NCBI GenBank assembly: GCA_914767715.1
Contig: OU612069.1
Location: forward strand, 28,207,387 to 28,271,386
DNA length: 64,000 nucleotides
Direction of reading: 5' to 3'
From: Membranipora membranacea
Taxonomy: Eukaryota; Bryozoa; Gymnolaemata; Cheilostomatida; Membraniporidae
Positions 1,961-37,439 of the stretch are shown in pieces (position 1 is the stretch's first letter; each line of letters begins with the position of its first letter). The position numbers were made by a program, and so were the translations under genes. Below the pieces are notes generated by a model, which did not search any database, was not told the DNA's origin, and saw only the letters and a program-made list of their open reading frames with translations.

Positions 1961-2101
1961 TATGAGATATCTGACTGGTCTGCAGGAACTGCTTGTACGA
2001 TCGAATACAAGTCTGAGTACATTACCTGACTGGATCGGAGAACTAAAGAGCCTAAAGAAACTTGATGTGACAAACTGCAGTCTCACTGCACTACCTGACA
2101 G
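1961..2101 (+). CDS. LRR exon, copy 1 (about two leucine-rich repeats)
   Basis: The exon is 141 bp and phase 2 at both ends, between ttgttacag and gtaaataag. It encodes LTGLQELLV, LSTLPDWIGELKSLKKLDV and LTALPD, typical of short leucine-rich repeats of about 23 residues. Because it is symmetric it can be gained or lost without breaking the frame. It splices to 3324 by joining AG with T to make a serine codon. The 47-residue product is about 72% identical to the next exon by eye. Confidence 0.85.
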
Positions 2102-8100: not shown

Positions 8101-11100
8101 CTAACAATAATTTATAATCTTTACCCTAAACGCCAATTGACAATGTGGTCACAGGTCAACTGCAGGACTGCCACCGAACTCCACAAGAACCTGAAATTAT
8201 AATTATTGATCAGGAATCTACAGCAACAATCGCTGCTGCTCAATAAGTGGACAAACTTAGCAATAAAGTTGATATTATGAAACACTGTCAAAGAAGCCAA
8301 TTTATAGCACAACTCATGCAGAAAATGAACCTCACCGCTGGAGAAGTATATGATGTTCAGTGTCACACCATGGACCAGAGTAAATTTGCCTTGTGGAAAG
8401 TTGCACGGAAAGGCAGAATACCGCATCACTTGGCCATCTGGACCACATTGAGCTTGGAATAGAGTCTAAAGATAAGGCTAGGGAGGGCTTGTGCCATGGG
8501 CCCCTGGGATCTGTATTCCTGCAAACCTGCATTGTGCTGATGTCAAGTATCAACCACCCAAAACCTATACTGGATAATTCAGTCAACCATTCATCTAACA
8601 CAAGTCAATCGCCAAATTAACCTAATACAAAAAATAAATAGTCTGTTATCCATTCCCCTGATGTTTTGTGGCATTTATTCCTGCGGTATTTCTAGTCAAA
8701 TTATAATGGCCTCATCCAACATTCACTTAATCCCCGTACAGACACAGTACTCTCACTTGTCATCAGCATGATAATCTCTATTTTACCTGATCACAGCAGA
8801 CAATAATCATAGCATAACATATCGATGCAATAATAGGTGTATTGTGTACTGTATTGTGTTTTGGTGTACATTGGATCAATTTATTGCTGTGATCAGCAAC
8901 ATACATTTACTGTAATCACCTGAAAAAAACCACTGGGCAGTACCTAAAAATTAAAAAAATAATTCCGAGTAGGGTATTGAAAACTATGCCATCAGATACC
9001 ATACTACACTGACATGATCCTATGGCAACCCCTTAATTTTAGCTTTCTTGGAATAGGAGTTATTCCATGAATTTTGTCATCACTAATGATGTGCTCAACG
9101 CCACAGTCAATTTTCAAAGGGAAGACAACTTGATTGAAATTGTTTATTTTCAAAGGCCTGGTAGGTCGCTTAATAATTTGAAGCTTTCATAATTAAGATC
9201 GGGCAATTAAAGTGTAATCGGGCAAATAGGCAAAGCATCAATTGGTTTTACTACACAGATGTGGTTGAAAATAGGACTGTCATAAACACAAAATTCAAGT
9301 TTTTTATTATCTGTACTTTCACTATTATTACTTACAGTTTGTCAGCACTGAAAAATCTAACGTATCTCAATATAGGAGGTAACCAATTCACAACATTACC
9401 TCCTGTAATCTTACTGCTGAACACTCTCAGGCATTTGGATATCTCAAAGTTAGACACATTAAAATCACTGGACAAGGGGATACTTAACCTGGCTCACCTC
9501 GCCTCACTAGATTGTAGCGGTTGTAAAGCACTAATAAGTCCACCTTTCGAAGTATGTGATCAGGGGCTCTCTGCAATCAAGAAATACTATACTGACCTCG
9601 CTCATCAAGGTCATACTCCACCCGCTGAAATTCCCGTAATCTCAGTAGCAGTCATAGGAAGTACTTTGGCTGGTAAGACAAGTCTGATTGAAACACTAAA
9701 ACACAATAAGAGGACCCTGACTAGCCGCAATGAGAAGTTACCTACTGACGATACAACTGAAGTCTTTGAGGTGAAAGACATTACAATCAATGGCTCGAAG
9801 CTGAGGTGTTTTGACTTTGGTGGCAACGATGTTTATCATCTTGCTCACCAGTTCACAATAAGGAACAATTACATCCCTGTCATAGTTGTGAACATGAAAC
9901 AGTTCTCTGATTTGTCTATGTCTGCCGGGACCAGTAAAGCTACAGAGCTGGTCTGCATGAGATACCTCAGTCACCTATATATCTCATGTCCTAATCTGGG
10001 AGCGCCCATTTTGGTTCTCACACACATGGATCGCCTATCAGACGAAGCATTCACTGAGAGTAAAGCACAGCTACTAACAACCATGGAATCTAAGCGTTTG
10101 TCCATGGTGAAAGAGGAAGCGCTTTACTCCAGAAACTCCAGCAGATTTTGCACCATTGAGCATTTCTCCGACACCGACCGACCACTGTTCGACGATGATG
10201 ACATATATTCTTTCGGTGATGATGAGCTTGAAACAGAAAACATTCATTCTTTGACACAAAAGCTTGAGTTTCGTAGTGAAGCTCACAAAAGGGTTGTCCC
10301 TGACTTATGGAATGATATCGAGTCCATCTTCGAGCAACATGACCAGTCACAGTACATCCTTCTGACAGATATTATAAAGGCATTCCCAGAAGATAAGGAC
10401 TTGGTGATACTACGGTATAAGCATGATGTTGGCAGGATTCTATGGTTTGAGCGAGATGTCATACTTCGTCAGTATGTCTTCCACAGGATAGATTTGGTGA
10501 CCAGTGCGATCGCAGTGATATTTCATCACAGGAATGGTGAGAACTGGCAAAGGAGAACAGATGAATTTCAGCCATTAAGGTTGAATGGAAAGTGGGTCAC
10601 TAAGGAGAAATACTCAGTGCTAGTTAACAATTTCCTCAGCTCTGGGATGCTGGATGAGAGAGTTCTCAAAACTGCGTTTAGCGGCAATGACTTCCCTGTT
10701 GAAATCGCCGTTGCCCTTCTTCGGACATTTTACCTGATTTGTGGCCCAGTTGGAGACAAACCTGCAGAGGCGTATATCATCCCTGCGCTCTCAACAGATG
10801 TAATTAGAGAAAATGTGATCGTTGATCGTCTCCTTCCCCTCCGGGTGGGCATTCTCTTTGTAGGCCTTCCACCACCTCCCTATGTCTACCATCTTCTGAC
10901 AGTAGCATTCTTGAATCTCTTCTTGGCACCTGAGTATAAGATAACAGCCGCTAGTAATGGTGCAGAAGTCCATCATGGACCCTCAATCAGTCGTGTCACC
11001 CACAGCAGTGAGAACTGTGAGCTCATAATCCAAATGGACACACCAGTGGAAGAGTTGGGTGAGTCCTGGAGGCTGATGAAGAAAGCGATTTGTCACCTGT

Positions 11101-14100
11101 TGAGATGCTCCCTGGGGCAATGGGAAGGAGCTCGACCCATCTGTAAATTCTTCTGCTCTCATTGCTTGTGCTTGAGGCTCCCTGATCCTGATGCTGATAT
11201 TGACCCAGACTGGATGGAAATTCCTGATTTGCAAGAGAATGAAGATGACTGGCTACGTGAATTCAGAGGCGTGGAGCCTGTCCCCTGTGCCAACGACAGA
11301 ACTGATGGAGGCCCCCTGAAGGTGCTGAAGCCTCTGCGGTACCCGTGTGAGTAATTTACACTAAGAGACATGCTGCTGCTCATTGGAATTTTCACTGACG
11401 TTAGTTTTGAGATGGATAGTTCCATGCTTGAGAAAGCGGTTGTATATCTTAGATTTTTTGATGCCACAACTCTCCATTTAAATTTTTGACTGGTTGCTAT
11501 GCTGGGCAAAGCCAAGCTGTGGCAGCAATGGTTTAATCCCTTTCAAGTATTCTACAAATAACCTCCAAGCTCAGCAACATTAATCGCATTGTCAAAATCT
11601 TTAATTTTTTGGCCTTGTTCAAGATCTTGTGTATAAGAATACTGAGAGTTTGTTTTAGGCGATTTCAATATCACCTCATTATTATACTAGTCTAATCTGT
11701 CCTTTGTCACAGGTGACAGGTTGACGAAGAAAGAGTTGAAGAAGGTAAAGGATTATGTCAGGGAGCTTGAAGAAGAGAGGTCTGGATTTGTTGGGACCTC
11801 TAGAGGCCTCCAAAGAACTATCACTGGTATGTACCATAGTATATGGATTTGTTTGTTTGATCAGTAATGTAGAATTTTCTGTATCAGGTTATGGAGATAT
11901 GATTGATGTTTTACAGCAACGATCTGTCAGGTATTTGTTGAATCAAAGAGAGAACCAGTATCAGTTTTGTGTTCAGTCATCAACATAATGTCTTGTTTAT
12001 GCATAATTAACACACTCTTTAGTAGCTTCTAAAAGTGGCGTGATTAATTTGGAGTAATTTTTATGACTGCCATTATTTCATGTTTATTTTGCTTACTGAA
12101 ATTTAAATTCGTTTTCGTTGCCTCACCAATGATCTTTTACACAAACCGGAATCCAAGTATCTGTAGAGGTGTCAGAGAAGACGACTATTGAAGACGTAGG
12201 TGAGATAGTGAATATGATGAGAAATTCACCTGCTGATATCTGTATTGAGGGTGGAGGTCTGGTTACTGGGCCAACACAGACACTGTATGAGGTATATAAA
12301 CTCTTCACTGCATTTCATTTTGTTTACTCTCCTATATTTTTTGCATCCAACCTTGGTACATGCTTGATTAATTTCAGCAATGTTTCTGTGATGAACAGCT
12401 GTTGATGCTTTACAGTTTCCACAATACTGTAGGTTGATTTTTATTCTGATTAACCCCTTTAATGAGATTATACTAATATAAAGTATGTTACTTTTCAGAC
12501 TGAAGTCACAGATTGTCATTTAATCGCACAGCTTAGAACAGTTATTTATGTAGATCTCTCTGTTTTACTCTTACAGGTATACAAGATGACAGAGCCACGA
12601 GGCAGAGCCTTGATATTATCTAACATGTACCAAGTGACTGATGAACAGACAGGAAATGACCTCATGAGACACGGATCGGAACATGACTATAAAAACATGA
12701 AACAAGTACTGGATAGTCTGAGCTTCGTCACAGCAGGAGAACACAAGAACTACAACGCTAAGGTATAATATGGCATATCAGACTTTGTATCATTAAATCT
12801 GTTGTTATGCTTTATTGTGCAACTTGATATAGAATAGTTGTCGATTTGAACTGTTTTGTACCAAACTGTGATGTGATTGGCTGTACTGGTGGTTTGATTG
12901 TGATGAGCAAGTTGCAGACAGATTGCCCTTCTGCCTTACCCTGAATGAGTGTTATTTGTGGCTGGAGGTTAAAAGCCCGGTAATCCATTCTGGTGAACAC
13001 TCAGTAAGTTGCTCCGTTTTTAGGGGGGTAATCAGGGAATTTTTCTTTCAAATAGCAGTTAAATTTATTCATTTCACTTTCTTTCCATGGACACTTCAAA
13101 AAACCCAAAACTGATCTAATTTTGCCTTCCACATTCCGACCATACATTTGGGGCCTTGTCTGCAATCACTGCTGTCAGTATAATCTGGTAACTGAATATA
13201 TCATTGTGATGTTGATCTGTACCTTGATTTGTACCTTGATTTGTTCCTTGATGGGTCTAGTTTCCAGTGCCAGCATCTGCTGTGACTTAAGAAACTGTTT
13301 TTTCTTGTTTGTCGGTTAACATTTCCAATCAGCAACAATTTCGATAATTGAACAGCTTTTAGGGGTTATACACGCGGGGACAAGAAATGAGTTACCAGTG
13401 GGTAGGGCATTCCAGTCCTGGATGAAAAACAATCTCGGGTAGTGAGGGGTGTTTGACGTAGGTATAAAGTACTGCTCCTCCTGTCTCCTAGCTGATGAAA
13501 CGCTGGCTGTTTGGATGTAGTTGTTGATGACGCCTTTGTTGGAGTGATGGTATCGACAAAAGATTTTGATATGTCTATCCCTCCGTCTGTGTGAGAGTTT
13601 CTAGATCAATCCAGTTGTGCTAGTTTCCCTGTCAGTGCGCCGTTTACCGCAGATGAACAGGGCTGCTCTTCTCTGCACAGCTTCCAGTGGGGTTGGTAGC
13701 AGAGTTAGCTGCCGAGTCCCAGACTTCGGAGGCATGTTCTAGGACTGGCCGGACCAGCTGCTTGTACGCTTTCTTAAAGGGTTGTCACCAGTTGTTTGTC
13801 TTTCTTCAGTGGTCCCCCAGATGAAATGTTGCCAGAACACTTATGTTTGATGTAGGTACAGAAGTGCTTGGAAATTTCTTCCGGGGACTTCTCTTGGTCA
13901 GTGAATAGTTTATTGACATACTCAGCATGTTGCTTCTGTAGCATTTTCTGAATAACATGGCGGTAGGTATTGTAACAGTTCTCTAGATGTGTTGTGCCCT
14001 TTCTTTTGCATTTACGGTACAAATGTTTCTACTTTTTTTTATTAATTGGTGTGGTTGTTTTGAGATCCAGGGCCGTGAGTCTTTGCATTTTGTCAGTCGT

Positions 14101-17100
14101 TTCGGAATGAACAACTGCATCGCCTTGATGTTATTCTAGGGTTAAGTAAGCTTGCTCTACTTGTTTCATGATTGGTGTCAGATGTTTCTTCATTGCAGGC
14201 CAACCTGCCTTGTTGTAGAGCCATATCTTCATCTGGGGCTGTTTGCGATAGTTTGGCATCATAGCTGCCTCAAGGTACACAACCTAATGGTTGCTTATAC
14301 CTGGTATTACCTTGAAGGGGCTCACCTGTTCTGTCAAGTTTGTGGCAATTGGATCGAGTCTATTGTGCTTCCTCGTCAAATCTAGAAAACATTGTGTCAG
14401 TCCAAAGATGTCTAGTAGGTCTAAAAATTTGGTGTGCTGGGCAGTATACTGTGAGCCTGGCTTCAGTGAAAGGTAAGACTATTCCCATCCTGGTAGATTG
14501 AAGTCCCCTCCAATGACCAGGGCTCCGGCTTTCTTAGTTATCAGCTGGTTCAGTGATTCCCGGAGATGAGCAGTGAAGGTTTTATATGACATATAGGACC
14601 TATAAACACGCAGATATGTATAATATGTCCCGTGAGCTTTACACTAGATTTTTACCCACAGTATTTTTGCCTCAGACTTGATCTCTACTTCGGTGCTATT
14701 TAGTGAAGAGTTTACTGCGATCATCACACCGCTATAGAATCCATTTTTCCTGTCCCTTCTGTTAATGTTATAGGAGTCACTTTCCAGCTCACTGTTACCT
14801 ATTGACTCATGGAGCCAGGTCTCTGTGGCAATGATTTCATCTGGTATTGTTGTGTGTGGCAAGTTGAACCATGCGCCTATTCTACTTAAAATTGACTGGG
14901 AATTGACATTGATGAGGCGCAGGGCTCTGCCATTTCTAACAGTTGGTGGTTTGTATATTCTTAGTGAAGATTCGTGTACTGGTAGGGGTTTGTCATCAAG
15001 AAAATCAATACTTAAATCGTCAGTTGATGAGTTAGTTGTCTGGGTTATCAGCAGCAAATTCGTCTCAGCTGATGATGTAGTTGTATAGTTGTGCCTATTA
15101 CAGGAGGAGCACATCCATAGCACACTGCTACGGTCCAGTGTGGAGTAGTCTGCAGACAGAATAGCTCGGCAAGCAATATGAAACCATGTGTCACATTGTT
15201 CACATAAAACTCCCTATCACTATGGTCCCATGTAGCGATTTTGTAAGGATTTCGGGAGTTATTGATCCATGGAAATGAAATTAAAGTCACATTCCGCTTG
15301 TGGCGAATGACTCTTTTGACACGAATACGTATACTGTGTTGAGTCGAACAACTTTTAATTGGCAGCGTGGCTGAATGGTTAGCGCGCTTGCACACAATGA
15401 CTTAAAACGGCATTAGCGTGGGAAGCCGTCGTTCAAGTCCCGGCCGCAGCAGATTCTTTTCATGTTTTTTTTCCATCATGGAAATGGTTAGGATTCATAT
15501 TCGAAATTGGAGTGAACCACAAATTCGAGGCATGGGACCATAGTGTTTGTGTCATAGCCCACTGGGTGTTTACACGTGCCACATAGGTAGGCTGTGTTAC
15601 ATGATAATCCCTGTGTGTAAGTTGCTACGGTCCAGTGTGGAGTAGTCTGCAGATAGAATGGCATGGTAAGCAATATGAAACCATGTGTCACATTGTTCAC
15701 ATAAAACTCCCTTTGTGTCCCACCCCCTGGGTTACAAACCTTGTGTTACAAACCTTGTGTATAAGTTGTGCTGTTATTATTATTATTGGTTGTGTTGGCA
15801 GCCATCTTGGATTGGTAGGTGAGCAGTCAGATGTCTTTTACCTCTTTTTGAGTTGTTTTTTGGTATTGGTATTGGCTGGTGTGGTGTAGCTGTTACTTGG
15901 TTGATTTGGAGTGGTTGGGATAAAAGGTGTTCAATATCAATGCCAACTAAGATGTCTGTACTGAAACCTTTGCAGACGGAGCTTGAAGCCTTGAATTCTA
16001 GGTGGGAGCCGATCCAGAAATTTGTTACCAAATAAAGACACCAAAGGCTTATGGTCTGTCTCAACTGTGACACATTCCATACCAAGAATGTACTGAGCAA
16101 ACTTCTCCATTGACCAGCAGACAGCCAGGCTTTCTTTCTCGATAGTCGCATACCGCTCCTCTGTCTCAGTCAGTGAACGGCTCGCAGCTGCTATCAGGCG
16201 TCTAGAGCCATCATTCTGAATTTGGGTTAGTGTTGCTCCAAGAACTGCATTGCTTGCATCACTGGTTATGATAGTTTCACTCTCAGGTAAGTAAACCGAC
16301 AGCACAGGGGTCTTCATGAACAGATTCTTGACACCCTGAAATGAATCCTCTTGGGCTTTGGTCCAGACCCACGGTACACCATGTTTCATAAGACCCCTCA
16401 GCGCTGCAGAAGTTTCGGCTAACTTGTCAGAGAGTTTAGCATATTGGTTTGCCATACCAAGGAAACTTCTGATAGCTGTAACATCTTTGGGTCGTGGGAA
16501 ATCCATAATACCTTGCAGTCTCGGCCCGGCATGAATCCCATCCTTGTCAATTATATGACCAAGGAACTCAACAGTTGGTACTCCAAACTTGCATTTTGCT
16601 TTGTTGAGGGTCATACCTGCAGACATCAGTTTGTCCAGTACAATCTGCAACCGCTCATCATGTTGCTCCAGCGTTTCTCCGTATACCAGAAGATCATCCA
16701 TGTGGATTACAACCCCCTCAACTCCATCCAGTATTCCGTTCATCTCGCAAACAAAGATCTCTGGGCTGCTACACAGACCTTGGGGTAAGCGAAGGTATCT
16801 GTATCTTCCGGAGTGTGTTAGGAAGGTTGTCAGCTTGCTTGAATCCTCAGTCAATGGGATTTGCCAAAACCCACTGTTTGCATCAATTCTAGAAAACACC
16901 ACTCCTTTACCCAACATAGCTAAGCTGCTGTCTACAGTAGACATTGGGTGTATCTCCCGTAATATGTGTTTGTTAAGCTCTGTGTAATCAGTGCAGATCC
17001 GAACTTTGTTCTGATTGGGTTTTGGTACAACCACCATGGGAGCCACCCATTGTGTTGGTTCCTCTACTTTTGTTATGACTCCACCCCGGAGCATCTCCTG

Positions 17101-20100
17101 TATGGCCTCATCAGCAAGTTTTCTCCTTGGAAAGGGTATTGGCCGAGGTACATGGATTGCAAATGGTCTGGCATATGACTTCAGGGTGATAGAATGAGGG
17201 TTACTCAGCTTTCCCAAGCCGGAGAACAGCTGATCGTGCACATTAACACTGCCCACGTAGCATTGCGTGTCATCTACTGTAATGAGCTTTAACCCCTCAC
17301 AGGCTCTTTTGCTCAGTAGTGGGGTTTTCTGACCATGTACTACATATATCTCCTCCTCAATCACTTCCCTCCTGGCTTTCATTTTGGATGATATCACTCC
17401 ATAGCATTCCAATGGTGTGTTACCAGGCCCATACAGCTTCTTTGTTGTAGGTTTAAGTTCACCTCTGCAGTGATGTGGACCACATATGCTCAAAGTGGCT
17501 CCAGTGTCCAGCTTAAACCTCATCTTCTGGCCCTTAGCTTTCCTTGTACTAACAGTCAGGTAAGAGTTCGACTCGACAGACTCTATTGGTATGACTTCTC
17601 CCAGGAATACATTCTCCTCATCACCAGTCCTGTCTTCATCCACATGATCAACCTGCCTAGCACTTTTACAAACTTTGGCCCAATGATCAATTTTTTCCAC
17701 ATTTTCCACACTTGGTACCAAGTGCTGGACATCTCTGTGACTTTTGATGGCCTTTGCCACAATATCCACACTTTGTGCGACTTACGGGCTTCCCATCTCT
17801 CCGTTTTCTATCACCGGTCTCACTACTCAGAGCATCAACTTCTTGTGTTTTGGCTTCAGCATCTTTCCCAGCTTTCAACTTGCCTGACTTCTCAGCAATT
17901 CTCAATGACTTAATAACATAGTCCAATGAGAGTTTTTCATCAGGTTCCCTCATTAGCTTTTCTCTTTCCTTAGTGTCATCTAGGCCCAATAGAAGTTTGT
18001 CTCTAATCAGAGAATGTCTTTGGGTTTCAAAATCACATCCCTCAGCCAACCTCCTCAATTTCATGAGAAACACATCCACAGTGTCTCCATTCTGTCTACA
18101 GTTATGGAACTCAAAACGGCTGACCACAGCTCCAGAGCGGGATTACAGTATTCATAAAACCTCTTGATCACATCCTCAAGTTTTCTGCCATTAGCCCCCT
18201 CCTCAAGCTCAGTCACCGCCCCTGTGAGAGCATGTGGTGCAGAATTGAACGCCATCTGAGAATACAATTCACGCACATCCTCACCCCCAACACATCTAAA
18301 CAGTGCTAACTTCCTCTTTTCTGCAGCTTTAGTTGTTGCAACCAAGTCAATTGCACACAAATAATCATTGAAAGACCTCACCCATCTGCTCCATTCTCCA
18401 GCAAGATCCTCTGCCCTCAGATTGAGCTGCCCAGGGGGTGAGATTCCCTCCATCTTTACCACCACACAGCACACCAGTCTTATATTGTCATATATTGGGT
18501 TCAACAGACCGCTGCCACCATGTTGTATTATATTATGAGTGTTTGTAATGCTGGGAGATGCTCAGAACACAACCAGTTTGACTTGCAAGCAGCATGCAGC
18601 TGATTTAATGGAATCACTAAAACTACATGTGCATAATAGTCTGAGACATATGACAAGGGTAAAGTATTCAAATACAAGAGTGGGTAATTCCAACAATGAC
18701 ATGAACATGAGAAGACAATAACATATGTACACAATATGACATGAGAAGACAATGATCAATATTATACATGAATGTACTAATACAACAGATGTGTAATCAG
18801 TTAAAACTTTTAAGTTTTTCAGATAATCTTTTAAAACAGGCTTGCCGCCATCAAAGGTCAAGGTCAAGAATATGTTGATAATAGTCCTGGTTGTACGGTG
18901 TTCTCTATGTATCGGTTTTGCAGTGTACTGCTGCGTGATATGAGCACAGTGTATTTATTTCTGTTCTGGCTGTGTTATTGGCTGTTTTTTCTCAACTTTG
19001 ATTGATTGTTGGTTTGCTGCTGTTTGTCTAGGTAATGTAGAAGTCATGGTAAATACAAGTCGATCAAAACAGGAAGTTAGAGCACTCAATGCGTTATTTC
19101 AGTCATGATAGCATTTCAATAAAATGTGTCAGCCATTTCATTCCTTCCTACTCTATATGAAGCTTAGATATTTTCAGATATGATTTGGTGTAATAACTAT
19201 GGCTGATGCTGAAATGTAGCTAATCTAGATCAAGATTAAATTTTTAAAAGATCTAAATCAGACATATAACATATCAGAGTGAAGCCTACTGATAAATTGC
19301 GTTGTGGTCTTTGCTCTCTTTTAACACTTCGCTGAACAGGCCAGTCCGGAAAACACTGTGCACATGTCTACAGCAGTGCACTTCTACCGTAAGGTTGCGT
19401 ATTGTAGCCGCGTGGTTAATGTGCATGAGTGGTTAAAACATAGCGGTTATAATAAGGGCATTGTTTCCAAATTGTATAGGCAGGTGGTTAATGAATGAAC
19501 ATACATACTCGTCGTCGTCTGGTTCGCCTGTAGAACGTGCAGGTACACATAGACGTTAATTTCTGGTCACTTCCTTTTAAACTACACTCCTCCACTCAAA
19601 CCGATTTTGGGCTATTTGGTATGCTCTATCTAGGTCTAGTTCTTTTTCTGTTAGGTTTTTGGAGATTGTGCTTAGCCAGGTTGTCCGCTGTCTACCTCGT
19701 GGCTCGAGGGCTGTTGGAATAGCTCTAGTGCTCGGCGGGCAGGTGTTGTTACGCCCAGGGGGAGAAGGTGACCTAGCCAGCTTAGTCTTCGTTGTTTGAT
19801 GGTTTGGCTCCAAGGCTCTTCCTTGGTTCTCTGGTAGACCCTTTCTGATGTTATTACGTCTGGGTATATTACATTCAGTACCTTGCGTAGTAGTCTTATG
19901 TGGTAGCTGTCGATGGCTTCTGCTGTGGTGTCTGTCATTGACCATATCTCCGAGTTGTATAGGAAGATAGGGGCTATCACGCTGTTGAATACATACATAC
20001 ATACATACATACATACTAACTCAGTTGTAACAAGCTAGCAACGACTATATATCTCTTATTTTTATTACCAATATCCGACCTCAGAAGAGTCATATAAAAT

Positions 20101-23100
20101 TGTTGAGCTCAATGTAATGACCTTGTTACCTCGTAACAACTACATAAAATTATCATCCAATTAGAAACGATCTGACACCTAGTTAACCAATCAGCATTCT
20201 TCTTCCCCACCAGTCAATGCAACTTCTTATCTTTATGGCAGACAGAAATGTATCATAATGTTTTGTTTCGAAAAAGTTAGTCGGACAGCTGTGGGCTGTG
20301 GTCAGGTCTGTGCAGTGTGGCGGGAGGGCATTAGCATGTAACAAATAGTGTGCACATCTCTTGATCATTTTATTGCCTGGGCGGCTAAATATTGTGGTTC
20401 AATGACAGTGGGCTTGCCGGTGTGACATGGTTTTGTTAAATTAATCCAGGCCTGTTCACCAACTCAGTGAATTAAATGCGATTTTTCTCCCAGATTAAGG
20501 CTGAGCATTGCAATAGATATTTTTCCCTATGGCATTACATTTTGAAACAAAATCGAATTGAAACCTTTTCCCAATTGGTGGTTATTGAAGTTAGCGTCCA
20601 AAAGTACATTAAGCATTGTCCAATAGATTTTGAGTGACTTGCACGGTATGAGCAGAATACGATTTTTGTATTGGCGCAGCCCTAAACTCATGAAAAATCA
20701 AAAGTAAGTCGTAAGAGATGTTTTCCATAGTTTGTCCATAATTCAAAAAGTCCCCTTCAAGAGTAAGTAGATGGGAAGATATGGTCAAAAGTTGGTGTCC
20801 TTAGCTGAAGCAGGACTGGCAATATTGGAAAGAAAAAAAGTATATGTGTAAGCCATTGGCAATGATAGCGTTTTAATTCACTGTGAACAAGCCGCGTGGT
20901 TACAATACGCGACCTCGGTATTCATCTAGTAGTTCATAGTATAGACATCACCATACAGGTAAGGTGTGGTATTGGTCGCAGTTACCGACATCACAATACA
21001 ATGTTCAATTACTAAAATATTATGAGTCCCATACGGTATACTAATGCCTACATTAATTCTTTTTAGGATATCGTTGATGCTATTCATGCTGAAACACAGC
21101 TAATAGATGAGAACACAGGCAGATCGATACACAAGAACTACGGCATGTTTGTCCTAGTCGTGACAAGTCATGGAGATGAGGGTAGTTTACTAGGCTGTGA
21201 TAACAAACACATCAAACTGACTGATCTATATGACCTCCTATCACCTCCTAATTTCCCAGCTATGAAAGGCAAACCAAAGCTTGTGATAATTCAGGCTTCC
21301 TCAGGAGGTAAGGGATCGCATTGAAGCCTCAATAAATCAGATATATATACAATATTATATAATATACAATAATAATTTGGAATAATAAACATGCTTTATT
21401 CAATAACTAAGAGTATTAAAACCGTAGGCCTAAATATAACCTGTAATTGTATTGTCTTCTCAAATCTGTTTTATTGTAACAATTCATTCTCGATTCTGGG
21501 TAATCAGTTCAAATTATCATAATTCTAATTTTATGATTTCTATCGTGCAGAGAAAGTTGAGAAAATGCTTGATGATGGACCAGAACAACAGATAGTCACC
21601 CCACAAAGCTCCACCAGTGAGGGTCATACAGAAAGAGTCAACCAATCAGCTGCTGAGAATGAACCACCTGCTGCCTTCTCTCATACTCAGCAGTCACAAC
21701 AACCGGTCGAACTCGAGATATCAGTTCCAGATCTATTGATAATGCAATCAGGCTTTGATGGTGAGTGCCAAGTCAGGAATCAACAGAATTTACATAATAT
21801 GATCCAATCAATATCCTCAGACTCAGTAAAAACAAGAGGAAATGATGTAATAACCTCGGTGTACAACATTTATCAGCGAATAGCTCAGAAGTACTGTTGA
21901 ATTGCAGTAGAATCTAAACTCATCGCATAACCATATTCTTACTATCCTTTACATACATTTTGACGGATTGGTATATTATAATGAAAATATTAAGATTCAT
22001 CAGTCCCTTAATGGTGCCCCAGCACTGCCGTTGCCTGCACCATTTCATCATGATAAGAGCACTAACGTTAATGATCGACAGATGTCTTTCATTTGCAGGT
22101 TTTGCTTCAGCAAAGAGTACAGTTTTAGGATCACCGTTTATAAGAGCTGTGGCCCTAACACTATATAAAATGGCTGACCGGTACGATATGGTGACTATGA
22201 GTAATATTGTAAGTTCTACTAACTCTTGCAAGCTTTTGCAAATTCTGTAAGAGTTGTTTAGTTCAGAAATGATCTAAACACATTATGTTAAATGATTTGA
22301 TATCAACTTCTAAATATTATCATCATGTGTAAAGCAGTTTTTTCAATTACATTATTCTCATAAAACATTGCTTAATATTAACTAACTTAACTTACTGACT
22401 CACGGAAAGACATGTGGAAGCATTCAAAACATGATGACAAACGTGAAAATCTGCTAAAAAGATTCATACAAGGGGTCCAAGTAAGCGTGTCTCCTATTCA
22501 CTGCCAGGCGAGCATGGTGAAGAAGGTGTAGGTTCAAGTCCCACTGAGTAGCTTTCAATGTTTGCTCTGCTTTGATTTGATTGTTCCAGACCCCCTTCAA
22601 CCGTGTAATCTCTCCACCACCCAGGAGCAGAGACAGTTGGGGGAGAGCTTTTCTTATAAAGATTAGAAGGGCGGTTAGGATTCAGCCGTCCGATAGATTC
22701 TGGTTTCATCAGCAGCCTAAAATTGATTTGGATTCTATTAACAGATCAGGGAGGCTGTGAGTATGTACAGTGATGAGAGATCTGATGAAATCAGACATCC
22801 CCTCCCTCCGTCTGAGCACTACAAAGCTCAAGTAGACCAAATGCCTAAGAACACATGTACTTTTACTGGTGGCTGGCAGCTTTATCTCGGCCGATGTGAT
22901 CTCAGTGTTCAATCTGGAAGTCAGCCATCTAATGAAACAGGAAATGCTGATAGCACAAAGATTAGGCACCTCTCAGGTAATATCTAGATAGCACTGACTT
23001 GTATCAGCTATAGATCTATCTCTTCCTCTCAGATAAAAAATGTGCTGCATTTAAGGTTTCAAGGGATGATCATCTTGATTTCAAAAGTGACTGGAAGGCT

Positions 23101-26042
23101 TTCGTTTGTGAGGGTCAATGTCTTTAAAGTAGCTTCTCTGATTGGTACACAGTTCAATCTTGCTATGTCAATCTTTTCTTAAACTATTTTAAAAAAATCG
23201 TTTAAGCAGTGAGAATTATGTTTGAGAACTATGTGTCAAACTTTCCAAAGCATCGTTTTGTGTTCTTCATCAGATGAACCGGAAACAGAAACAGGGATCC
23301 CAGATGAAGAATTGACATTAATCAGCAAACTGAGCTCAGCCCAGACTGACACAGATAATCCCTCTGAAGACAAACTCAGTGACATGATACCCGTAGAGGT
23401 GGGTGTGGTTTGCCTGCTGATTGAGTAAAACAACAATAATGGTCACAATAGCTTCTGTGTGATTTGGGATTTCACAATGTAACTTACACCGCTGTGACCA
23501 ATCAGTAGTACAGTTGCTGATGATGTCTCTTTATTTTTAGTATCATAAGATTGAGTCAGACGTACTGAAAGAGATCTCAGACCTAGATAATCCTGATGAT
23601 TACTCAGTCGTCACAATAGTGTGGATGAGATCTAAGCCAACATGTGAGTCTTTGTTTCATCTTGTTGCTGGGTCTATCAGTGAGAAATTCTCAGCGGAAA
23701 TTGGAAGCCAAACAGCAAGCACCCATATTGTTTTCAACGACCTCCTGCATGAGTTTATTGTGGAACATAATGAGAAATCTCTTGAGACTATACAGAAAGA
23801 AGAGTTGACTGCAATGATTGAGAATAATTCAAAGTACCTGGTGGTGGCTAGCCTGCCTGCGTTCAAGCCAAGCAGTGATGAGAGTGATTGTGAGGAGATG
23901 TGCTACTTCACCTGTGACCCAAATGAGATCATCTCACCAACTGTGGAATCTGACAAAGGGACTGGAAAAGAAGCATATTTCTACAGACACAAGGATTTGA
24001 AGCTTATTGTTGGCAAACCGAAGAGTCCGTCCGAGAACAAAGCACTCTCATCTGCCGGTCCTAGTTACCACAGCAACCCGATTGTTGAGGTTAGCTTTAC
24101 ATCGTGAAATTTTACATTAAATACACGCAGCATGTTCTCTTTTAATCATGTATTGTTACTTTGATGTCAAATTGAAAATATTTGAAGAGTTTTCTGATGT
24201 ATTATGCTGCAAACATTCAAATTACATAGATTTCTCCTTTTTTTAGTCGCTGCTCATTAACAAGCGGATGAAGATGCATCAACAACTAAGTGAGGTGACA
24301 AAGAAGCTGAGGAAGCTACACGACGATCAAGGACAAGTAGACAACGTCATCACTGCTGTCATATTTGTCAGCGGATTCCAGAGAGAGAATAGACAATGTG
24401 ATACTAACACATTGGTGGTCTTTCATGAAGGATTGGTGCATTTTCAAACACGTCAGCGATATTTCTTCAGCAAAGTTGGCATTGAGGGACAATGGCTTGT
24501 CTCACTGGCCCATATATGTCACAAAATCACAGCTGAGCTGACAGAGTTTGATGAGTGTGAGAGAATAGATCTTCAAAGAACCATGTGGCCTCGTGCACCG
24601 CAACCTGAGGTATTTCATCTCTCTAGGGATGATGATCTGTCAGTCTGCTTTGGCTCAGAGGGAATTTCTGTTAAGGCCGGATGTGACGAAACCCTCACTA
24701 AGTTCGTCCCGCTATCTATCTTCAATACCTCACAGGAAAACGAGAAGGTTGGTTGCACTCAGAAAATGTCTCATACATGATATACCATAATAAATACAAA
24801 TCATCATAATGTGCTAGTAATTTTGTTTTTGTATTAAGGTGTTCTTTGTGAGGCTGGTTTGGAATATCCACCGGGAGCAACGAATCAAATTACTGTGTCA
24901 TGGTCTATATCAGTCTGATAAAGACAAGACAGACTTTTTTACTCACAACTCCCAAATTTTGATGTGAGCTCTAATCTGTTAATTTTTTTCAGCTTTCTCA
25001 ATCGCAATTCGATCAAATCCAATCGACGCACGTTTCACTTGATCCTCAAGGACAGGATTATGACGATAACTTGTCTCGCTTCATAGACATAGATGACACA
25101 GGAAGTGACAGTCTGTCGTGCACTGAGTCAGTATTTTTGTGCACGTTCCATGTTTATTCGAGATTGGAAAGTGTGAAGAGACCAACTGCTGCCAGTGCAG
25201 AAATAGAACTGGGTCAAGAGGAAAGATCTGCACTAAACACAACATCAACAACTAAGGTCATAGGAAAAAATGGTGGTCATAGTAAGCCAATAATCCAGTA
25301 TAGGGAGGGCTGGGGTGTCAATTCTACACGCCGTATTCTGATAGCTGTCGGTAAGACTAACAGCATAGGGCTTCCTGTAAGATTGGATTATAAAGATGCT
25401 CTAACCTCTCTCACGCTCACCACCAAGAAGATCCCTGACAGCCAGCGATTTGCCCAAATACTGAAATCAAACTACTCAAAGAAAAGTGCAAGGAAGAAAG
25501 TAAAAGCCGTCGCGCCACATGTTCAGCATGATCTTATCAACCACCCAGATAAGCATACTCCATTATGTAATGCAAAGTCAAATTCAATATGCAAGAAGAA
25601 ATTCAACCAAGAGATGGTCCTATTTGAGTCTCATGGTGTCAAGGAAAGCTCTCTTAAAAGCTACGCATCAATGAACTTTTTAACTATAGATGAAATTGTT
25701 CAACAATCAAGAAATGCTCATTATTCTGGTGAGACATGTGCAGTCTGCGAGACACCACCATGCTTGAATGGCCAGCCACCCCACAGAGCAGATAATATCT
25801 CTGACTGTTTTGAGAGGTACATGATACGAAATCTTCCTCAGTCGTACAAGTTCCCCACAGCTCAAATCGCCATTCAGACTATAGCTCCACCCGCTAATAT
25901 CGGTTCAGACTCCCAGGATTTAGTTTTACCTACTGCTGATGAGGCTCATATGCTTTTCTATCAGTTTGGGGAGAAGGCCAATCAACATGTTCCCCGGAAG
26001 ACAATTGATGAGATTTTATTAGCGCACCAAGATTCGGATTAG
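1961..26042 (+). CDS. LRR-ROC-COR-pseudocaspase protein (Roco family), 5'-partial, 14 exons
   Basis: Exons, all with AG/GT borders: 1961-2101, 3324-3464, 9338-11346, 11713-11826, 12167-12291, 12577-12762, 21067-21307, 21551-21760, 22099-22208, 22745-22976, 23274-23398, 23541-24089, 24247-24747, 24993-26042. Phases agree at every junction and the sum is a whole number of codons, giving 1910 residues plus stop. Order: LRRs (1 to about 170), ROC GTPase (about 195-345), COR (about 420-720), linker, caspase fold (about 848-1140), unrecognised C-terminal region. Known of the families: Roco proteins are GTP-regulated dimeric switches with LRR sensors, and caspase folds act in death or inflammasome-like signalling. 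The fusion suggests an intracellular sensor with a non-proteolytic caspase-like output; this is inference. The first visible exon begins in phase 2, so at least one upstream exon is missing, probably outside the window. The gene model is predicted and has no transcript support. Confidence 0.85.
3324..3464 (+). CDS. LRR exon, copy 2
   Basis: Second 141-bp phase-2 exon with the same borders (cttgttacag before, gtaagtaag after). Motifs include LIGLEELIV, LPDWIGELKSLKMLDM and ITELPD. The flanking intron sequence is also duplicated from copy 1, so this is a genomic tandem duplication and not convergent repeats. It splices to 9338 in the same phase, across a 5.9-kb intron. Confidence 0.85.
3830..6140. 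other. Intron interior, no gene recognised
   Basis: Lies inside the 3465-9337 intron. AT-rich, with only short open frames. I see no LRR exon, RNA gene or long repeat apart from the dispersed block at 3830-3898. Confidence 0.4.
6158..7470 (-). mobile_element. Degenerate non-LTR retrotransposon, reverse-transcriptase remnant
   Basis: The minus strand carries recognisable RT pieces in several frames with stops. Near 7219-7461 there is a linker (QQFVDKMNEYYKTIAGEQLP); near 7040-7060 DFRPISLL; at 6654-6932 LNDFSKAFVLIDHKLLLS, the LDFSKAFD motif of LINE RTs with D changed to V, and LVANYMNNCSHCVLLSGNN. A post-catalytic part lies near 6380-6600. It ends in the dispersed repeat at 6158-6368. Clearly dead; sits in the intron of the main gene, antisense to it. 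Confidence 0.7.
7600..8240. other. Intron interior, nothing recognised
   Basis: No convincing coding, RNA or repeat signal. The minus-strand frame at 7645-7887 is low-complexity and matches nothing I know. Confidence 0.35.
8247..8560 (+). pseudogene. Possible frameshifted YqaJ-like exonuclease fragment
   Basis: One frame gives QSKFALWKVARKGRI and the overlapping frame gives TASLGHLDHIELGIESKDKA, as if a single frameshift near 8420 split the peptide. W-x-x-x-R-x-x-R-I-T-A-S followed by W/L-G-I-x-x-E-x-x-A is the pattern of YqaJ-type nucleases, common in animal transposons. The match is short, so this is tentative. Confidence 0.2.
8650..9337. other. Intron interior before ROC exon
   Basis: AT-rich, no coding or RNA signal seen. 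It ends in the acceptor cttacag at 9331-9337. Confidence 0.4.
9338..11346 (+). CDS. Exon with last LRRs, ROC GTPase and COR domains
   Basis: It opens with three more LRRs (LKNLTYLNIGGNQFTTLPP, LNTLRHLDI, LAHLASLDC). The ROC domain follows: P-loop GSTLAGKT at residues 201-208, switch threonines near DDTTEVF, G3 DFGG at 253-256, and G4 THMD at 322-325 (the THxD form usual in ROC domains). All nucleotide-binding motifs look intact, so GTP binding is likely. The COR-like part starts near LLTDIIKAFPED (about residue 435), with the helix, strand and turn pattern of COR-A and COR-B, and runs to about residue 720. No kinase domain follows, unlike LRRK1, LRRK2 or DAPK1; the next conserved block is a caspase fold. 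I chose the acceptor at 9338 because the phase fits; the open frame extends upstream to 9261 but that part is intronic. Confidence 0.88.
11713..12291 (+). CDS. Two linker exons between COR and caspase fold
   Basis: Exons 11713-11826 and 12167-12291. The first encodes a charged helical stretch (LTKKELKKVKDYVRELEEER). The second is acidic and ends in LVTGPTQTLYE. I see no death-fold, CARD or DED domain here, though a strongly diverged one cannot be excluded in about 80 residues. Confidence 0.75.
12577..21307 (+). CDS. Caspase-like p20 exons, catalytic Cys replaced by Ser
   Basis: Exons 12577-12762 and 21067-21307, separated by an 8.3-kb intron. The first has PRGRALILSNMYQ, matching the first caspase strand, then RHGSEHDYKNMKQVLDSLSF, matching the R-x-G-[ST]-x-x-D helix block, with the P1-pocket arginine at residue 874. 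The second has VLVVTSHGDEG with catalytic His940, and the active-site loop QASSG at 981-985 where active caspases have QACxG. The serine codon TCC at 21298-21300 is one base from cysteine TGC. The His-to-nucleophile spacing (43 residues) is normal. The fold looks intact while peptidase activity is very likely lost. Confidence 0.85.
13350..15123 (-). mobile_element. Non-LTR retrotransposon with internal deletion of the RT core
   Basis: Reading the minus strand from 15123 down: an endonuclease start (ALRLINVNSQSI, IIATETWLHESI), decayed sequence to about 14050, a linker frame at 13774-14022 (YNTYRHVIQKMLQKQHAEYV), then at once FKKAYKQLVRPVLEHASEVW and LEAVQRRAALFICG, which is the region after the RT. 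The fingers, palm and catalytic motifs normally lie between these last two blocks. About 900 bp or more have been lost at a junction near 13785. The copy is inactive and lies in the 8.3-kb intron of the main gene, antisense to it. Confidence 0.75.
14644..15123 (-). pseudogene. Endonuclease N-terminal part of the deleted LINE
   Basis: 159-residue open frame. The start is S/T-rich; the second half has the APE-type endonuclease opening, with N-x-x-S near the start, the ETW motif containing a catalytic glutamate, and GVMIAVNSSL. Downstream endonuclease motifs (GDFN, SDH) fall in decayed sequence, so no active nuclease can be made. Confidence 0.65.
15127..15712. repeat. 90-bp direct repeats flanking a tRNA-like sequence
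   Basis: 'gctacggtccagtgtggagt' and the following 70 bp occur at 15127-15215 and 15625-15712, differing at only a few positions. The 410 bp between them hold a tRNA-like segment. This could be a solo element with short terminal repeats, or a tandem duplication of a SINE. Confidence 0.6.
15361..15452 (+). repeat. tRNA-like (SINE-type) sequence with long variable region
   Basis: 'tggctgaatggttagcgc' is a good A box and 'cgttcaagtccc' a good B box, spaced as in Ser/Leu-type tRNAs. A T-run follows at about 15463. The acceptor and T stems do not pair properly, so it is a tRNA-derived repeat or pseudogene. Confidence 0.4.
15937..17769 (-). CDS. Ty3-type pol fragment: protease, reverse transcriptase, RNase H
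   Basis: 610 residues open without a stop. Protease motif LDTGATLSICG near residues 88-98; RT blocks FSRIDANSGFWQIPL, LPQGLCSSPE and the catalytic box VIHMDDLLVYG (HMDD where YxDD is usual); thumb VEFLGHIIDKDGI; RNase H TSDASNAVLGA, EKESLAVCWS and ETDHKPL. The frame ends shortly after RNase H where a connection and integrase should follow. The length of intact frame implies fairly recent insertion followed by truncation. Confidence 0.88.
   Translation of the reverse strand: MDIVAKAIKSHRDVQHLVPSVENVEKIDHWAKVCKSARQVDHVDEDRTGDEENVFLGEVIPIESVESNSYLTVSTRKAKGQKMRFKLDTGATLSICGPHHCRGELKPTTKKLYGPGNTPLECYGVISSKMKARREVIEEEIYVVHGQKTPLLSKRACEGLKLITVDDTQCYVGSVNVHDQLFSGLGKLSNPHSITLKSYARPFAIHVPRPIPFPRRKLADEAIQEMLRGGVITKVEEPTQWVAPMVVVPKPNQNKVRICTDYTELNKHILREIHPMSTVDSSLAMLGKGVVFSRIDANSGFWQIPLTEDSSKLTTFLTHSGRYRYLRLPQGLCSSPEIFVCEMNGILDGVEGVVIHMDDLLVYGETLEQHDERLQIVLDKLMSAGMTLNKAKCKFGVPTVEFLGHIIDKDGIHAGPRLQGIMDFPRPKDVTAIRSFLGMANQYAKLSDKLAETSAALRGLMKHGVPWVWTKAQEDSFQGVKNLFMKTPVLSVYLPESETIITSDASNAVLGATLTQIQNDGSRRLIAAASRSLTETEERYATIEKESLAVCWSMEKFAQYILGMECVTVETDHKPLVSLFGNKFLDRLPPRIQGFKLRLQRFQYRHLSWH
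17687..18504 (-). pseudogene. Gag of the Ty3-like element, split by a frameshift
   Basis: Two overlapping frames (18061-18504 and 17687-18127) together cover a gag of about 270 residues. The first has a capsid-like helix-rich part; the second ends in a nucleocapsid-like region with CGYCGKGH and CGKCGKN zinc-knuckle signatures. The frame changes near 18100, and again between gag and pol near 17690-17770. The latter may be a natural programmed shift. Confidence 0.75.
18508..18520 (-). promoter_or_regulatory. Primer-binding site of the Ty3-like element
   Basis: Reading the minus strand, a CA dinucleotide ends the putative LTR and is followed directly by TGGTGGCAGCGGT, which begins with the TGG complementary to a tRNA CCA end. 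The position, just upstream of gag, fits. Confidence 0.55.
18521..18900 (-). repeat. Putative 5' LTR of the Ty3-like element (outer end undefined)
   Basis: AT-rich sequence starting at the PBS. On the + strand it begins TGTTGTATTATATT, consistent with a TG...CA LTR. There is no second copy in the window, so the outer border cannot be placed; the end given is approximate. Confidence 0.4.
19505..20014 (-). mobile_element. 5'-truncated LINE fragment (RT C-terminal region) ending in a (CATA)n run
   Basis: The minus strand encodes LFNSVIAPIFLYNSEIWSMT-like sequence, HIRLLRKVLNVIYPDVI and RRLSWLGHLL, the region after the RT of endonuclease-RT LINEs. A second frame continues LTEKELDLDRAYQIAQNRFEW. 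It starts abruptly in a CATA microsatellite (about 19990-20026) and has at least one frameshift, so it is a dead 3' fragment. Confidence 0.7.
20465..20883. mobile_element. MITE copy A, CAGTGAATTAAA inverted ends
   Basis: The element opens cagtgaattaaa and closes tttaattcactg, a perfect 12-bp inverted repeat. The 400-bp body matches 49182-49573 in the same orientation ('gagatgttttccatagtttgtcc' occurs in both). It has no coding capacity. No clear target duplication was found. The CAGTG ends suggest a hAT-like origin. Confidence 0.7.
21551..22976 (+). CDS. Caspase-like interdomain linker and p10 exons
   Basis: Exons 21551-21760, 22099-22208 and 22745-22976. The linker is about 70 residues, rich in Q, S and P, and ends in VPDLLIMQSGFDG, which matches the 'ADFLIAYST' lead-in to p10. 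GFASAKSTVLGSPFI lines up with the p10 pattern GYxSWRxxxxGSxFI, but the substrate-pocket Trp and Arg are Ala1060 and Lys1061. It continues LTLYKMADRYDMVTMSNI and IREAVSMYS, then QMPKNTCTF and WQLYLG, the end of a caspase fold. Loss of the pocket residues together with the cysteine argues for a stable pseudoenzyme. A SINE-like insertion sits in the intron before the last of these exons. Confidence 0.82.
22494..22740 (+). repeat. SINE-like insertion in an intron of the main gene
   Basis: 'ggttcaagtcccac' at about 22533 is a good pol III B box with a weak A-box-like part 40 bp upstream. The GC-richer tail to about 22710 differs from the surrounding AT-rich intron. It lies directly before the acceptor at 22744. 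Confidence 0.35.
23274..26042 (+). CDS. C-terminal exons of the Roco-pseudocaspase gene, unrecognised
   Basis: Exons 23274-23398, 23541-24089, 24247-24747 and 24993-26042, about 740 residues with stop TAG at 26040-26042. Visible parts: an acidic stretch; a globular-looking block with SLFHLVAGSISEKF and FNDLLHEFIVEHN that faintly resembles another p10; a basic coiled-coil-like start to exon 24247 (KRMKMHQQLSEVTKKLRKL); a block with VVFHEGLVHFQTRQRYFF; and a final exon with a basic segment (KKSARKKVKAV) and a CxxC-like cluster (TCAVCETPPC). I do not recognise any of these as a named domain. Reading frame and splice phases are clean, so they belong to the gene. Confidence 0.75.
24839..24963 (+). 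other. Possible alternative cassette exon
   Basis: Open in the expected phase between 'attaag' and 'gtgagct', encoding VFFVRLVWNIHREQRIKLL and further residues. At 125 bp it is not a multiple of three, so using it would shift the next exon (24993) and end translation about 30 codons later. The main model skips it because 24747 joins 24993 in frame. It may be chance. Confidence 0.25.
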
Positions 26043-27880: not shown

Positions 27881-27956
27881 GGGCGCAGAACTGGTAGCGA
27901 TACCGTGAACTGCCCCTCTGAGTGTAAGTGTACATCAATACCTAGCGTGCTGACTT

Positions 27957-28800
27957 ATGATTAATTCCATTACATCGGAGTATGCTACTCGTGGTAAAGT
28001 TAAGGCAAAATCTGTGAGTGCAGATGTCAGTGAGATACATAATGGCCAGCTGCAACAAATCCTAGACAAAATGGACGAGAACAAGAGGTCAGTTGACAAC
28101 CAGTACAACACCTTAATGACAGCAGTGAGCAAGATCAACACTCGCCTGGATACCATCGAGGCGGATCACAGAGGTTTCGTCACGTCACTAGAATATGCAC
28201 ACCGAGATGTAACTGATTTAAAAGCAAAGTTTGAAGAACTCAACAAGCATATACAACAACTCCAAGCTAATAATGAAGACAAATCAGAAAAAACTCAGGC
28301 CTTCATCAACACTGTTGATAAAATCGAGAATGATAAAAATCAACGAGCGCTATTAATAGCTAATATCCCGGAGAGCCGCAATGAAAGCACATCGAAAATT
28401 GTGCTATCACCAGCAAGTCACCTGGACACTGCCATCTCACCAAGTGATATAGATGCTGCATTCTGGATCAAAAATGAGTCTTCACGAGATCATCCAGTGA
28501 TCCTATTAAAGTTCAACAACACAACATCTCGGGAAAAGCTGTACAATGCCAGAAAAAATTTCAAAAAGAAATCGGTTAACCCTCGGTTTCAGAGAAGAAC
28601 GGAACATTTTTATTAATGAAATGCTCTCCACAGCCCAACAAAAACTTTTCTATAAAGCCCGTAAACAGAAAAAGGCTCTCAACTGGAAATATGCATGAAC
28701 TTATCATGGGCAAGTCTACATGAGACAAAGCCAAGATGCCGATGCTGTTAAAATAACATCGGAAAGCATGCTCAATGACCTCAATCCTGTAACAACACTT
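27957..28800 (+). pseudogene. LINE ORF1-like protein (coiled coil, RRM-like, C-terminal domain)
   Basis: The open frame 27957-28616 is 219 residues: a coiled coil (DKMDENKRSVDNQYNTLMTA and heptads to about residue 110), then NQRALLIANIPESRNES and ILLKFNNTTSREKLYNARKN, which resemble the RRM-like part of L1-type ORF1p. A frameshift near 28610 leads into INEMLSTAQQKLFYKARKQK, the usual C-terminal domain, interrupted by a TGA at 28696-28698 where Trp is expected. Confidence 0.65.
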
Positions 28801-28807
28801 AAACAGG

Positions 28808-37411: not shown

Positions 37412-37439
37412 TGTTGCACTTCCAACTCAAACATGCTAC

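Follow-up and report, generated by a model that had tools for sequence, protein, structure and literature searches.

The question raised by this locus of the bryozoan Membranipora membranacea is whether a single animal gene joins a Roco GTPase to a caspase fold, as an initial annotation of the 64,000-nucleotide stretch analyzed here (the window) had proposed for positions 9338–22976. LRRs, ROC-COR, a two-exon linker, a p20/p10 caspase domain and a C-terminal extension form one phase-matched exon chain at 1961–26042 (Table 1). We read the locus, with a probability of about 0.64, as one gene of a large LRR-ROC-COR-caspase family, most likely of intracellular receptors, whose member in the window and its sister most likely have a regulatory role or signal through the extension. 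The boundaries proposed before (9338, 11346, 12577, 12762, 21067 and 22976) all lie on GT-AG splice sites and preserve the frame. The fourteen exons assigned to 9338–22976 were a miscount, as that span holds eight; fourteen is the number for the longer model, 1961–26042. The two cassette exons place the beginning of the gene to the left of 9338, with a true start possibly off the window. At the other end, the chain runs to the stop codon, and the caspase is therefore not the end of the gene in the window copy, contrary to the proposed caspase-fold ending. A candidate exon at 11888–11934 was dropped due to incompatible phases, and E7 has an alternative in-frame acceptor at 12499. The sister gene also carries a long intron (about 5.6 kb) at the matching p20 position.

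Table 1. Features of the LRR-ROC-COR-caspase gene in the window
Feature	Position	Strand	Phase	Basis or content
E1, LRR cassette exon	1961..2101	+	2 in / 2 out	splice sites, weak LRR matches alone
E2, LRR cassette exon	3324..3464	+	2 in / 2 out	splice sites, Pfam LRR
E3, last LRRs + ROC GTPase + COR	9338..11346	+	2 in / 1 out	PF08477, COR-A
E4, first linker exon	11713..11826	+	1/1	coding score 0.30 per codon, best chain
E6, second linker exon	12167..12291	+	1 in / 0 out	acceptor picked by exon-chain score
E7, caspase p20 start	12577..12762	+	0/0	splice sites, joined PF00656 match
Intron within p20 (8.3 kb)	12763..21066	+		contains retroelement frames on minus strand
E8, remainder of p20	21067..21307	+	0 in / 1 out	PF00656 41.9 bits alone
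E9, inter-subunit linker + p10 start	21551..21760	+	1/1	splice sites, joined PF00656 match
E10, p10 core, FASAKSTVLGSPFI	22099..22208	+	1 in / 0 out	splice sites, PF00656
E11, p10 end (QMP...LYLG)	22745..22976	+	0 in / 1 out	splice sites, PF00656
E12, C-terminal extension	23274..23398	+	1 in / 0 out	splice sites, kept in sister L109
E13, C-terminal extension	23541..24089	+	0/0	splice sites; no known family
E14, C-terminal extension	24247..24747	+		coding score; no known family
E15, last coding exon	24993..26042	+		stop 26040-26042; AATAAA at 26305

The two LRR cassettes differ at 27 of 141 bases, and the LRR matches of E1, weak alone, rise above the Pfam cut-off once E1, E2 and E3 are joined. 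Positive selection on the cassettes was considered and rejected, their dN/dS being about 0.6 and not above 1. E3 contains the Roc G domain of Roco (ROC-COR) proteins with its P-loop and G3/G4 motifs (PF08477, 29.9 bits against a cut-off of 27; P-loop GSTLAGKTS, DFGG and LTHMD). The G, GKT and DFGG columns are invariant in alignments with 5 and with 26 bacterial sequences, and a tblastn match to a Calothrix Roco covers residues 2–410 (E 1e-12). COR-A reaches 26.3 bits, under the Pfam cut-off of 35.3, and COR-B is not called in the Pfam scan of the gene. The ROC-COR switch had been described as intact; this word therefore applies to the ROC, while the COR, judged by its profile matches, is divergent. 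A fold model of ROC-COR with 26 bacterial rows is too poor to be informative (pLDDT 44.6). MFHAS1, LRRK1/2 and DAPK1 share the ROC-COR core, and MFHAS1 and LRRK the LRRs as well (passages of PMC6337361). Unlike these proteins, the window gene has no kinase domain in Pfam scans of the forward frames or of joined E1–E11, E12–E14 and E15, and the scans show neither an ankyrin nor a death domain. The same scans contain no NACHT or NB-ARC NTPase, the mark of NLR inflammasome sensors, and no relatives of E3 were confirmed in viral contigs.

Joined, E7–E11 match PF00656 over profile positions 1–228 of 233 (88.4 bits, E 7.4e-25), which bears out the full p20/p10 caspase fold claimed for the locus and covers the complete profile of caspases (C14A). 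In the PDB, the sequences most like the joined exons are those of CED-3, an ancestral caspase-3/6/7 and caspase-2. E8 retains the His motif SHGDEG and reads QASSG in place of QACxG, so that of the catalytic pair of C14A caspases, the His is present and the Cys is a Ser. The window copy is therefore classed as a caspase-fold pseudocaspase and not as an active caspase, and the term pseudocaspase was rightly chosen for it. In E10, a Lys occupies roughly the position at which a motif-based reading of ten paralogues gives Arg, so that the putative substrate-pocket Arg is changed to Lys in the window copy. A search for caspases in phages gave no match.

Two neighbouring genes could also account for these domains: an LRR-ROC-COR gene ending at an in-frame TAA after 11346, and a caspase gene starting in E6 or E7. 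This stop lies immediately behind the E3 donor, and both E6 and E7 have in-frame ATGs. Nonetheless, E4 contains no ATG in frame and is preceded by no well-scoring initial exon (best of three candidates −5.9), and AATAAA and ATTAAA are absent from 11346 to 12791. The best exon chain linking the COR and caspase exons reaches 37.4, or 33.8 if its weak third exon is omitted, a score that none of 300 dinucleotide shuffles (maximum 23.7) and none of 124 other window stretches (maximum 29.5) attains. Chain and coding scores are to be read as relative, because the splice-site matrices combine a general consensus with the gene’s own sites (E4 and E6 excluded, E3 and E7 included), and because the codon scores, with E3 and E8–E15 as training set, use a background of window stretches that in part also serve among the 124 controls. 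A distant member, L114+L110, is intact in the sense used here (His and Cys motifs alone), and its caspase matches PF00656 with E 1.7e-26 over profile positions 1–204. It carries two linker exons with the same entry phase and similar to E4 and E6, and its linker chain scores 38.5, a value reached by none of 300 shuffles. The recurrence of the two linker exons argues strongly against two genes. Both exons are also kept in the sister, E4 with a 15-base in-frame difference, and in the paralogues the caspase likewise lies downstream on the same strand. Chain tests, recurring linker exons and paralogue order, all read from sequence, strongly disfavour two separate genes, a reading that we regard as highly improbable, and the phase-matched chain together with the order repeated in the genome supports the single LRR, ROC-COR and caspase-fold gene first proposed. 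An SDH/ClpP-like domain in the linker was judged a chance match (E 0.0054 with the first E6 acceptor, E 0.18 with the better-scoring one).

The initial annotation had called for a search of animal genomes for the same domain order, and the genome of M. membranacea itself repeats it. At least 67 Roc matches, the window gene included, lie in long, intronless frames of at least 370 aa; 150 of 372 Roc and 140 of 515 PF00656 candidates were scored, so that the genome counts are lower bounds. Such a frame is called a ROC-COR frame here, with COR checked by Pfam for the window gene and L114. At least 35 of the 67 are followed on their own strand by a scored PF00656 match no more than 15 kb away, against none upstream and none on the opposite strand; random shifts (n = 1000) give a mean of 0.29 and a maximum of 6. 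In the 35 paralogues selected from 66, which are spread over seven contigs, caspase sequence follows every ROC-COR frame, in three by weak profile matches only. By tblastn, E7 and/or E8 are found behind 31 of them (16/20 and 15/15), including L104 and L128 with E8 only and L126 with E7 only. The other four show caspase sequence in a profile search, nine of whose own hits had gone into building the profile, and one of these four does so by Pfam too. For p10, tblastn picks up exon E10 or E11 in 17 of the 35 (12/20, and 5/15 with 2.6 kb fetched each). In L099, also one of the 31, the E7 match is far removed from E8, some 7.6 kb farther downstream. The catalytic pair of His and Cys is complete in 28 of 30 paralogues with a readable active site, the exceptions being the sister L109 and L095, so nearly all members read are predicted to be able to cleave.

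In the sister, which like the window copy has Ser for Cys, the aligned parts of the ten exons compared are all retained and free of stops. Between the two copies, dN/dS is 0.76 (E11: dN 0.125, dS 0.110), and five introns (93.0–98.4% identical) are about as alike as the ten exons (86.0–98.4%); hence there is no sign of strong constraint on the window copy. These values, E11 with dN above dS among them, would suit a decaying duplicate that has lost catalytic Cys, pocket Arg and function with its frame still open, as would the retroelement frames in the 8.3-kb intron and the rarity of Cys loss among the active sites read. However, all exons are open with a coding bias resembling other exons, splice sites are kept in both copies wherever aligned, and E12–E13 are common to both, which makes decay unlikely, if still the most serious rival. 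A scaffold, with the caspase fold limited to partner binding and the output residing in E12–E15, is a distinctly weaker candidate. It would fit the missing Cys and the detection of E12 and E13 in the sister alone among the fetched paralogue stretches; many of these stretches, however, are so short (2.6 kb in 15 cases) that other members may have the extension too. The portion of E13 within the fetched sister DNA is kept. Yet E12–E15 have no recognisable domain, and a fold model of E14 alone is uninformative (pLDDT 34.4). A second caspase p10 in E13/E14 was rejected: in six comparisons, 6 of 500 shuffles equalled the score of CED-3 p10 against E14 and 13 of 500 that of E13 against E14; for the remaining four the number was between 107 and 500 of 500, against 0 of 500 for the positive control.

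In the receptor family that we favour, the LRR end would sense a ligand and, by analogy with studied Rocos, shift ROC-COR between GTP states and between monomer and dimer or open and closed forms. This shift may alter both the activity and the proximity of the caspase, which shares the chain with the switch and would need no CARD or DED adaptor. In CtRoco, GTP drives opening and monomerization (PMC11052575), so that a model in which GTP brings about caspase dimers may have the direction reversed. Immune sensing by the family is something that we only infer. With Ser for Cys, the window member and its sister most likely serve a regulatory role, perhaps by teaming up with intact members in the manner of cFLIP and caspase-8, or signal through the extra C-terminal exons; the window copy would be regulatory, or decaying. 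Like other pseudocaspases, cFLIP has the caspase fold without the catalytic Cys, but it has DEDs and neither GTPase nor LRR. We give even odds to the broader idea that this animal lineage possesses a multigene arsenal of single-chain LRR/Roco/caspase receptors, mostly with an intact caspase, as a self-contained ‘inflammasome’ regulated by pseudocaspases of its own, the window gene among them. If so, one protein would unite sensor, adaptor and caspase roles that are split among proteins in mammals, a Roco GTPase cycle driving an effector would become testable with a clean protease read-out, and intact and dead caspase members would stand side by side in a new receptor expansion.

As to published proteins with the same domain order, no animal LRR-ROC-COR-caspase was found in the literature searched, but a bacterial LRR-GTPase-COR-caspase is described. 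Passages of PMC8195603 report variable effector tails, caspase included, on bacterial LRR-‘AP-GTPase’-COR proteins, and several LRR-GTPase-COR paralogues in a single bacterium (11 in the paper’s example). The likeness to the window gene is one of order (LRR, ROC, COR, caspase-superfamily domain), and the bacterial genes have no introns whereas the window gene is split into exons. Prokaryotic LRR-ROC-COR tails carry TIR_2 in 26 of 77 cases and CHAT, a caspase-like domain, in 8 of 77, while animal-type PF00656 is absent from the 77 scanned. His and Cys are conserved in an alignment of six similar long bacterial tails, of which L023 is identified as CHAT. If the receptor reading holds, the family would be an animal counterpart of this bacterial conflict-system layout. 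Known animal Rocos had been said to end in kinase, death, ankyrin or WD40 modules, a list that proved too short, since TIR and CARD Rocos are also published: sea anemones have LRR-Roc-COR-TIR (NG1; PMC5094078), Trichoplax has Rocos with CARD, death or TIR domains (PMC4104024), and Aplysia has ROCO-TIR and ROCO-MyD88-like proteins (PMC9334734). As in the window gene, ROC-COR and an immune or death module share one chain there, but the passages available describe no caspase domain in them. Amphioxus LRR-caspase and TNFR-caspase hybrids likewise join a receptor part straight to a caspase without an adaptor; they keep QACXG where the window copy has Ser, and ROC or GTPase has no occurrence in the text at hand (PMC2575513). 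Finally, the brown algal LRR-ROC-COR proteins, in whose available text caspase does not occur (PMC11378527), form an expanded family with LRR units on separate phase-2 exons, as here, although their LRR exon measures 72 bp against 141 bp in the window gene.

The gene in the window was assembled by hand as a chain of 14 exons on the forward strand, with GT-AG ends and agreeing phases. Profile matches on the joined exons E1 to E11 follow the order LRR_8 (55 bits), Roc (29.4 bits), COR-A (24.6 bits) and Peptidase_C14 (84.4 bits; profile positions 1-228 of 233). The initial annotation had proposed an LRR-ROC-COR-pseudocaspase order, of which Pfam bears out the LRR, Roc and caspase parts, while COR-A stays under its cut-off of 35.3. 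Joined without the rest, the caspase exons E7 to E11 reach 88.4 bits (PF00656; E 7.4e-25), whereas E8 by itself gives 41.9 bits and the frame of E7 16.1 bits, so joining completes a single domain. Its best PDB matches by sequence are a CED-3 chain, in which the Cys position is itself given as Ser, together with an ancestral caspase-3/6/7 and caspase-2. Of the catalytic dyad, the window caspase keeps His and has Ser for Cys (QASSG); in p10, Lys replaces a substrate-pocket Arg. The LRR exons E1 and E2 differ at 27 of 141 bases, while the introns that follow them show one difference over their initial 88 bases. Such divergence beside near-identical intron starts suggests that exons have recombined or been converted one by one, and brings to mind the LRR-exon shuffling of Rocos in brown algae (passages of PMC11378527).

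Positions of the gene, its relatives and other elements (window numbering unless a contig is named)
Feature	Position	Strand	Remark
Window	C5:28207387-28271386		
Exon chain	1961-26042	+	14 exons
E1	1961-2101	+	LRR
E2	3324-3464	+	LRR
PHD-finger frame	14647-15213	-	
Retroelement frame	15940-17781	-	reverse transcriptase + RNase H, presumably Ty3-like; inside caspase intron
LINE-like frames	27954-29449		Baculo_FP_2nd match, weak endonuclease match
Repeat-like frames	36719-37465		roughly 'LGPSFTNWGQV' in three frames
tRNA gene	39027-39099	-	66.2 bits; sole window Rfam match at gathering threshold
Sister gene (L115+L109)	C5:29.5 Mb	-	
PF00656 matches of L126	C9:645853; C9:646504		profile 1-59; profile 49-130
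Caspase matches	C1:33.2-36.7 Mb	one strand	21, no scored Roc match near

That the sensor and caspase halves belong to two neighbouring genes is very unlikely. The COR exon E3, whose end lies only bases short of a stop, has exit phase 1, whereas E7 begins in phase 0, so one or more bridging exons are needed for a single gene. In exon-chain scoring, E4 and E6 form a bridge of 33.8, or 37.4 with a weak third exon; neither score was reached by any of 300 shuffles (maximum 23.7) or of 124 other window stretches (maximum 29.5). The coding bias of E4 and E6, both excluded from score training, equals the level of the other exons. E4 has no in-frame ATG and no well-scoring initial exon lies upstream of it, and AATAAA/ATTAAA motifs are absent from 11346 to 12791. 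The anatomy recurs in a distant paralogue with intact His and Cys (L114+L110; C5, minus strand), whose ROC-COR exon (Roc 29.6 bits, COR-A 23.6 bits) ends LRYPC in phase 1 as in the window, and whose caspase exon begins VYQMTECRGRALIVSN in phase 0 (joined caspase: PF00656, E 1.7e-26). Between them, the same programme yields two exons, both with entry phase 1 and by eye resembling E4 and E6, with a bridge score of 38.5 that 0 of 300 shuffles reach (maximum 21.0). Of the arguments against two genes, this repeat is the strongest.

A Roc search of the own genome (339.3 Mb, 18 contigs) gave at least 148 matches, with 150 of 372 candidates scored. At least 67 of them, counting the window's own, sit in open frames of 370 amino acids or more that resemble the single exon of the window (C9 24, C3 22, C10 8, C5 6, C7 3, C8 2 and C2 2). 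Among the matches scored in this search and a PF00656 search of the genome, at least 35 of these 67 frames have a caspase match on their own strand and no more than 15 kb downstream (at least 33 no more than 5 kb), and none has one upstream or on the other strand; circular shifts gave a mean of 0.29 and a maximum of 6 in 1000 runs versus the 35 observed. Downstream DNA was examined for 35 of the 66 other frames (20 + 15). With the window exons, tblastn found E7 and/or E8 in 16/20 and 15/15 paralogues; of the p10 exons, E10 or E11 was recognised in 12/20 and 5/15. The four misses of E7/E8 (L102, L103, L105 and L106, all on C3, where L104 and L130 did match) are mutually alike and carry caspase profile matches (E 2.8e-6 to 1e-3), L102 additionally matching PF00656 (E 1.6e-7). 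They form a subfamily whose divergent p20 (SIMSHG) lies on a longer exon. Caspase p20 is hence found in 34 of 35 paralogues; L126, the 35th, has E7, and the genome search places two PF00656 matches there, the second starting four bases beyond its examined stretch. As for the caspase cluster on C1, it is perhaps the same caspase on another sensor, or its Roc is among the unscored candidates.

Leaving out the C3 subfamily, 30 p20 exons (16 + 14) are legible to the Cys position, and 28 of them carry Cys and the His motif (SHG, THG or GHG). The pseudocaspase state is therefore exceptional in this sample, and the window shares its state with its close sister (L109: SHG, QASSG); L095 has lost both residues (STG, QSVEG). 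Within this sample, L125 is the Cys-bearing relative closest in E8 identity (76 percent, QACSG). Aligned by eye, Arg stands at about the position of the window's Lys in ten motif-found p10 exons, the sister's included.

At the DNA level, E3 of the sister is 98.4 percent identical to that of the window. The ten exons from E3 to E13 align free of stops, E9 being complete except for one base and E13 partial, up to the end of the DNA compared, which stops short of E14 and E15; the eight fully aligned exons keep both splice sites and length modulo 3, and E4 shows a 15-base in-frame difference. Overall dN is 0.027 and dS 0.035 (ratio 0.76), and identity is 93.0-98.4 percent in five introns and 86.0-98.4 percent in exons. 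The pair thus has an open frame with no sign of strong constraint, compatible alike with relaxed selection, decay or diversification. Among the paralogue stretches examined, many of them short, E12 and E13 were found in the sister only.

Initiator caspases fire once brought together. According to PMC11052575, GTP leads to opening and monomerization of CtRoco. By analogy with Roco structures, the LRR and ROC-COR parts would act as a nucleotide-controlled hinge. Set beside the observed domain order, recurring anatomy and active-site states, such a hinge and caspase firing on proximity suggest a one-chain receptor, in which intact members would fire and Cys-less members modulate; GTP may act on the caspase in either direction.

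The LRR-ROC-COR-caspase architecture is well supported as real, unusual, repeated in a large family and apparently animal. No animal counterpart was found in a literature search whose scope left most subscription journals and bioRxiv preprints outside, nor does one appear in passages of PMC3196919, PMC6321704, PMC11378527 and PMC6337361. In its separate parts it is not new, every joint being known singly: published examples are ROCO-TIR proteins in Aplysia (PMC9334734) and LRR-caspase proteins in amphioxus (PMC2575513). Bacteria use the same order: passages of PMC8195603 describe bacterial LRR, AP-GTPase and COR proteins with at least 24 variable tail domains, caspase included. In another bacterial system, part of PMC7159879 calls some 70 percent of effector-position caspases inactive. 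By tblastn, seven plasmid Rocos were found at 23.5-30.2 percent identity. Five were aligned with the window, and a prokaryotic search with this alignment found many relatives (at least 512 of 579 pattern stretches; best 80 kept). Pfam lists PF00656 for none of the 77 tails of these 80, and EAD1 for 3; on these mostly cyanobacterial ROC-COR proteins, TIR_2 tails (26/77) outnumber CHAT tails (8/77). Among seven long tails aligned, six are alike, including one shown as CHAT (L023). All six retain both Cys and His, the latter within GHG except for one GHS.
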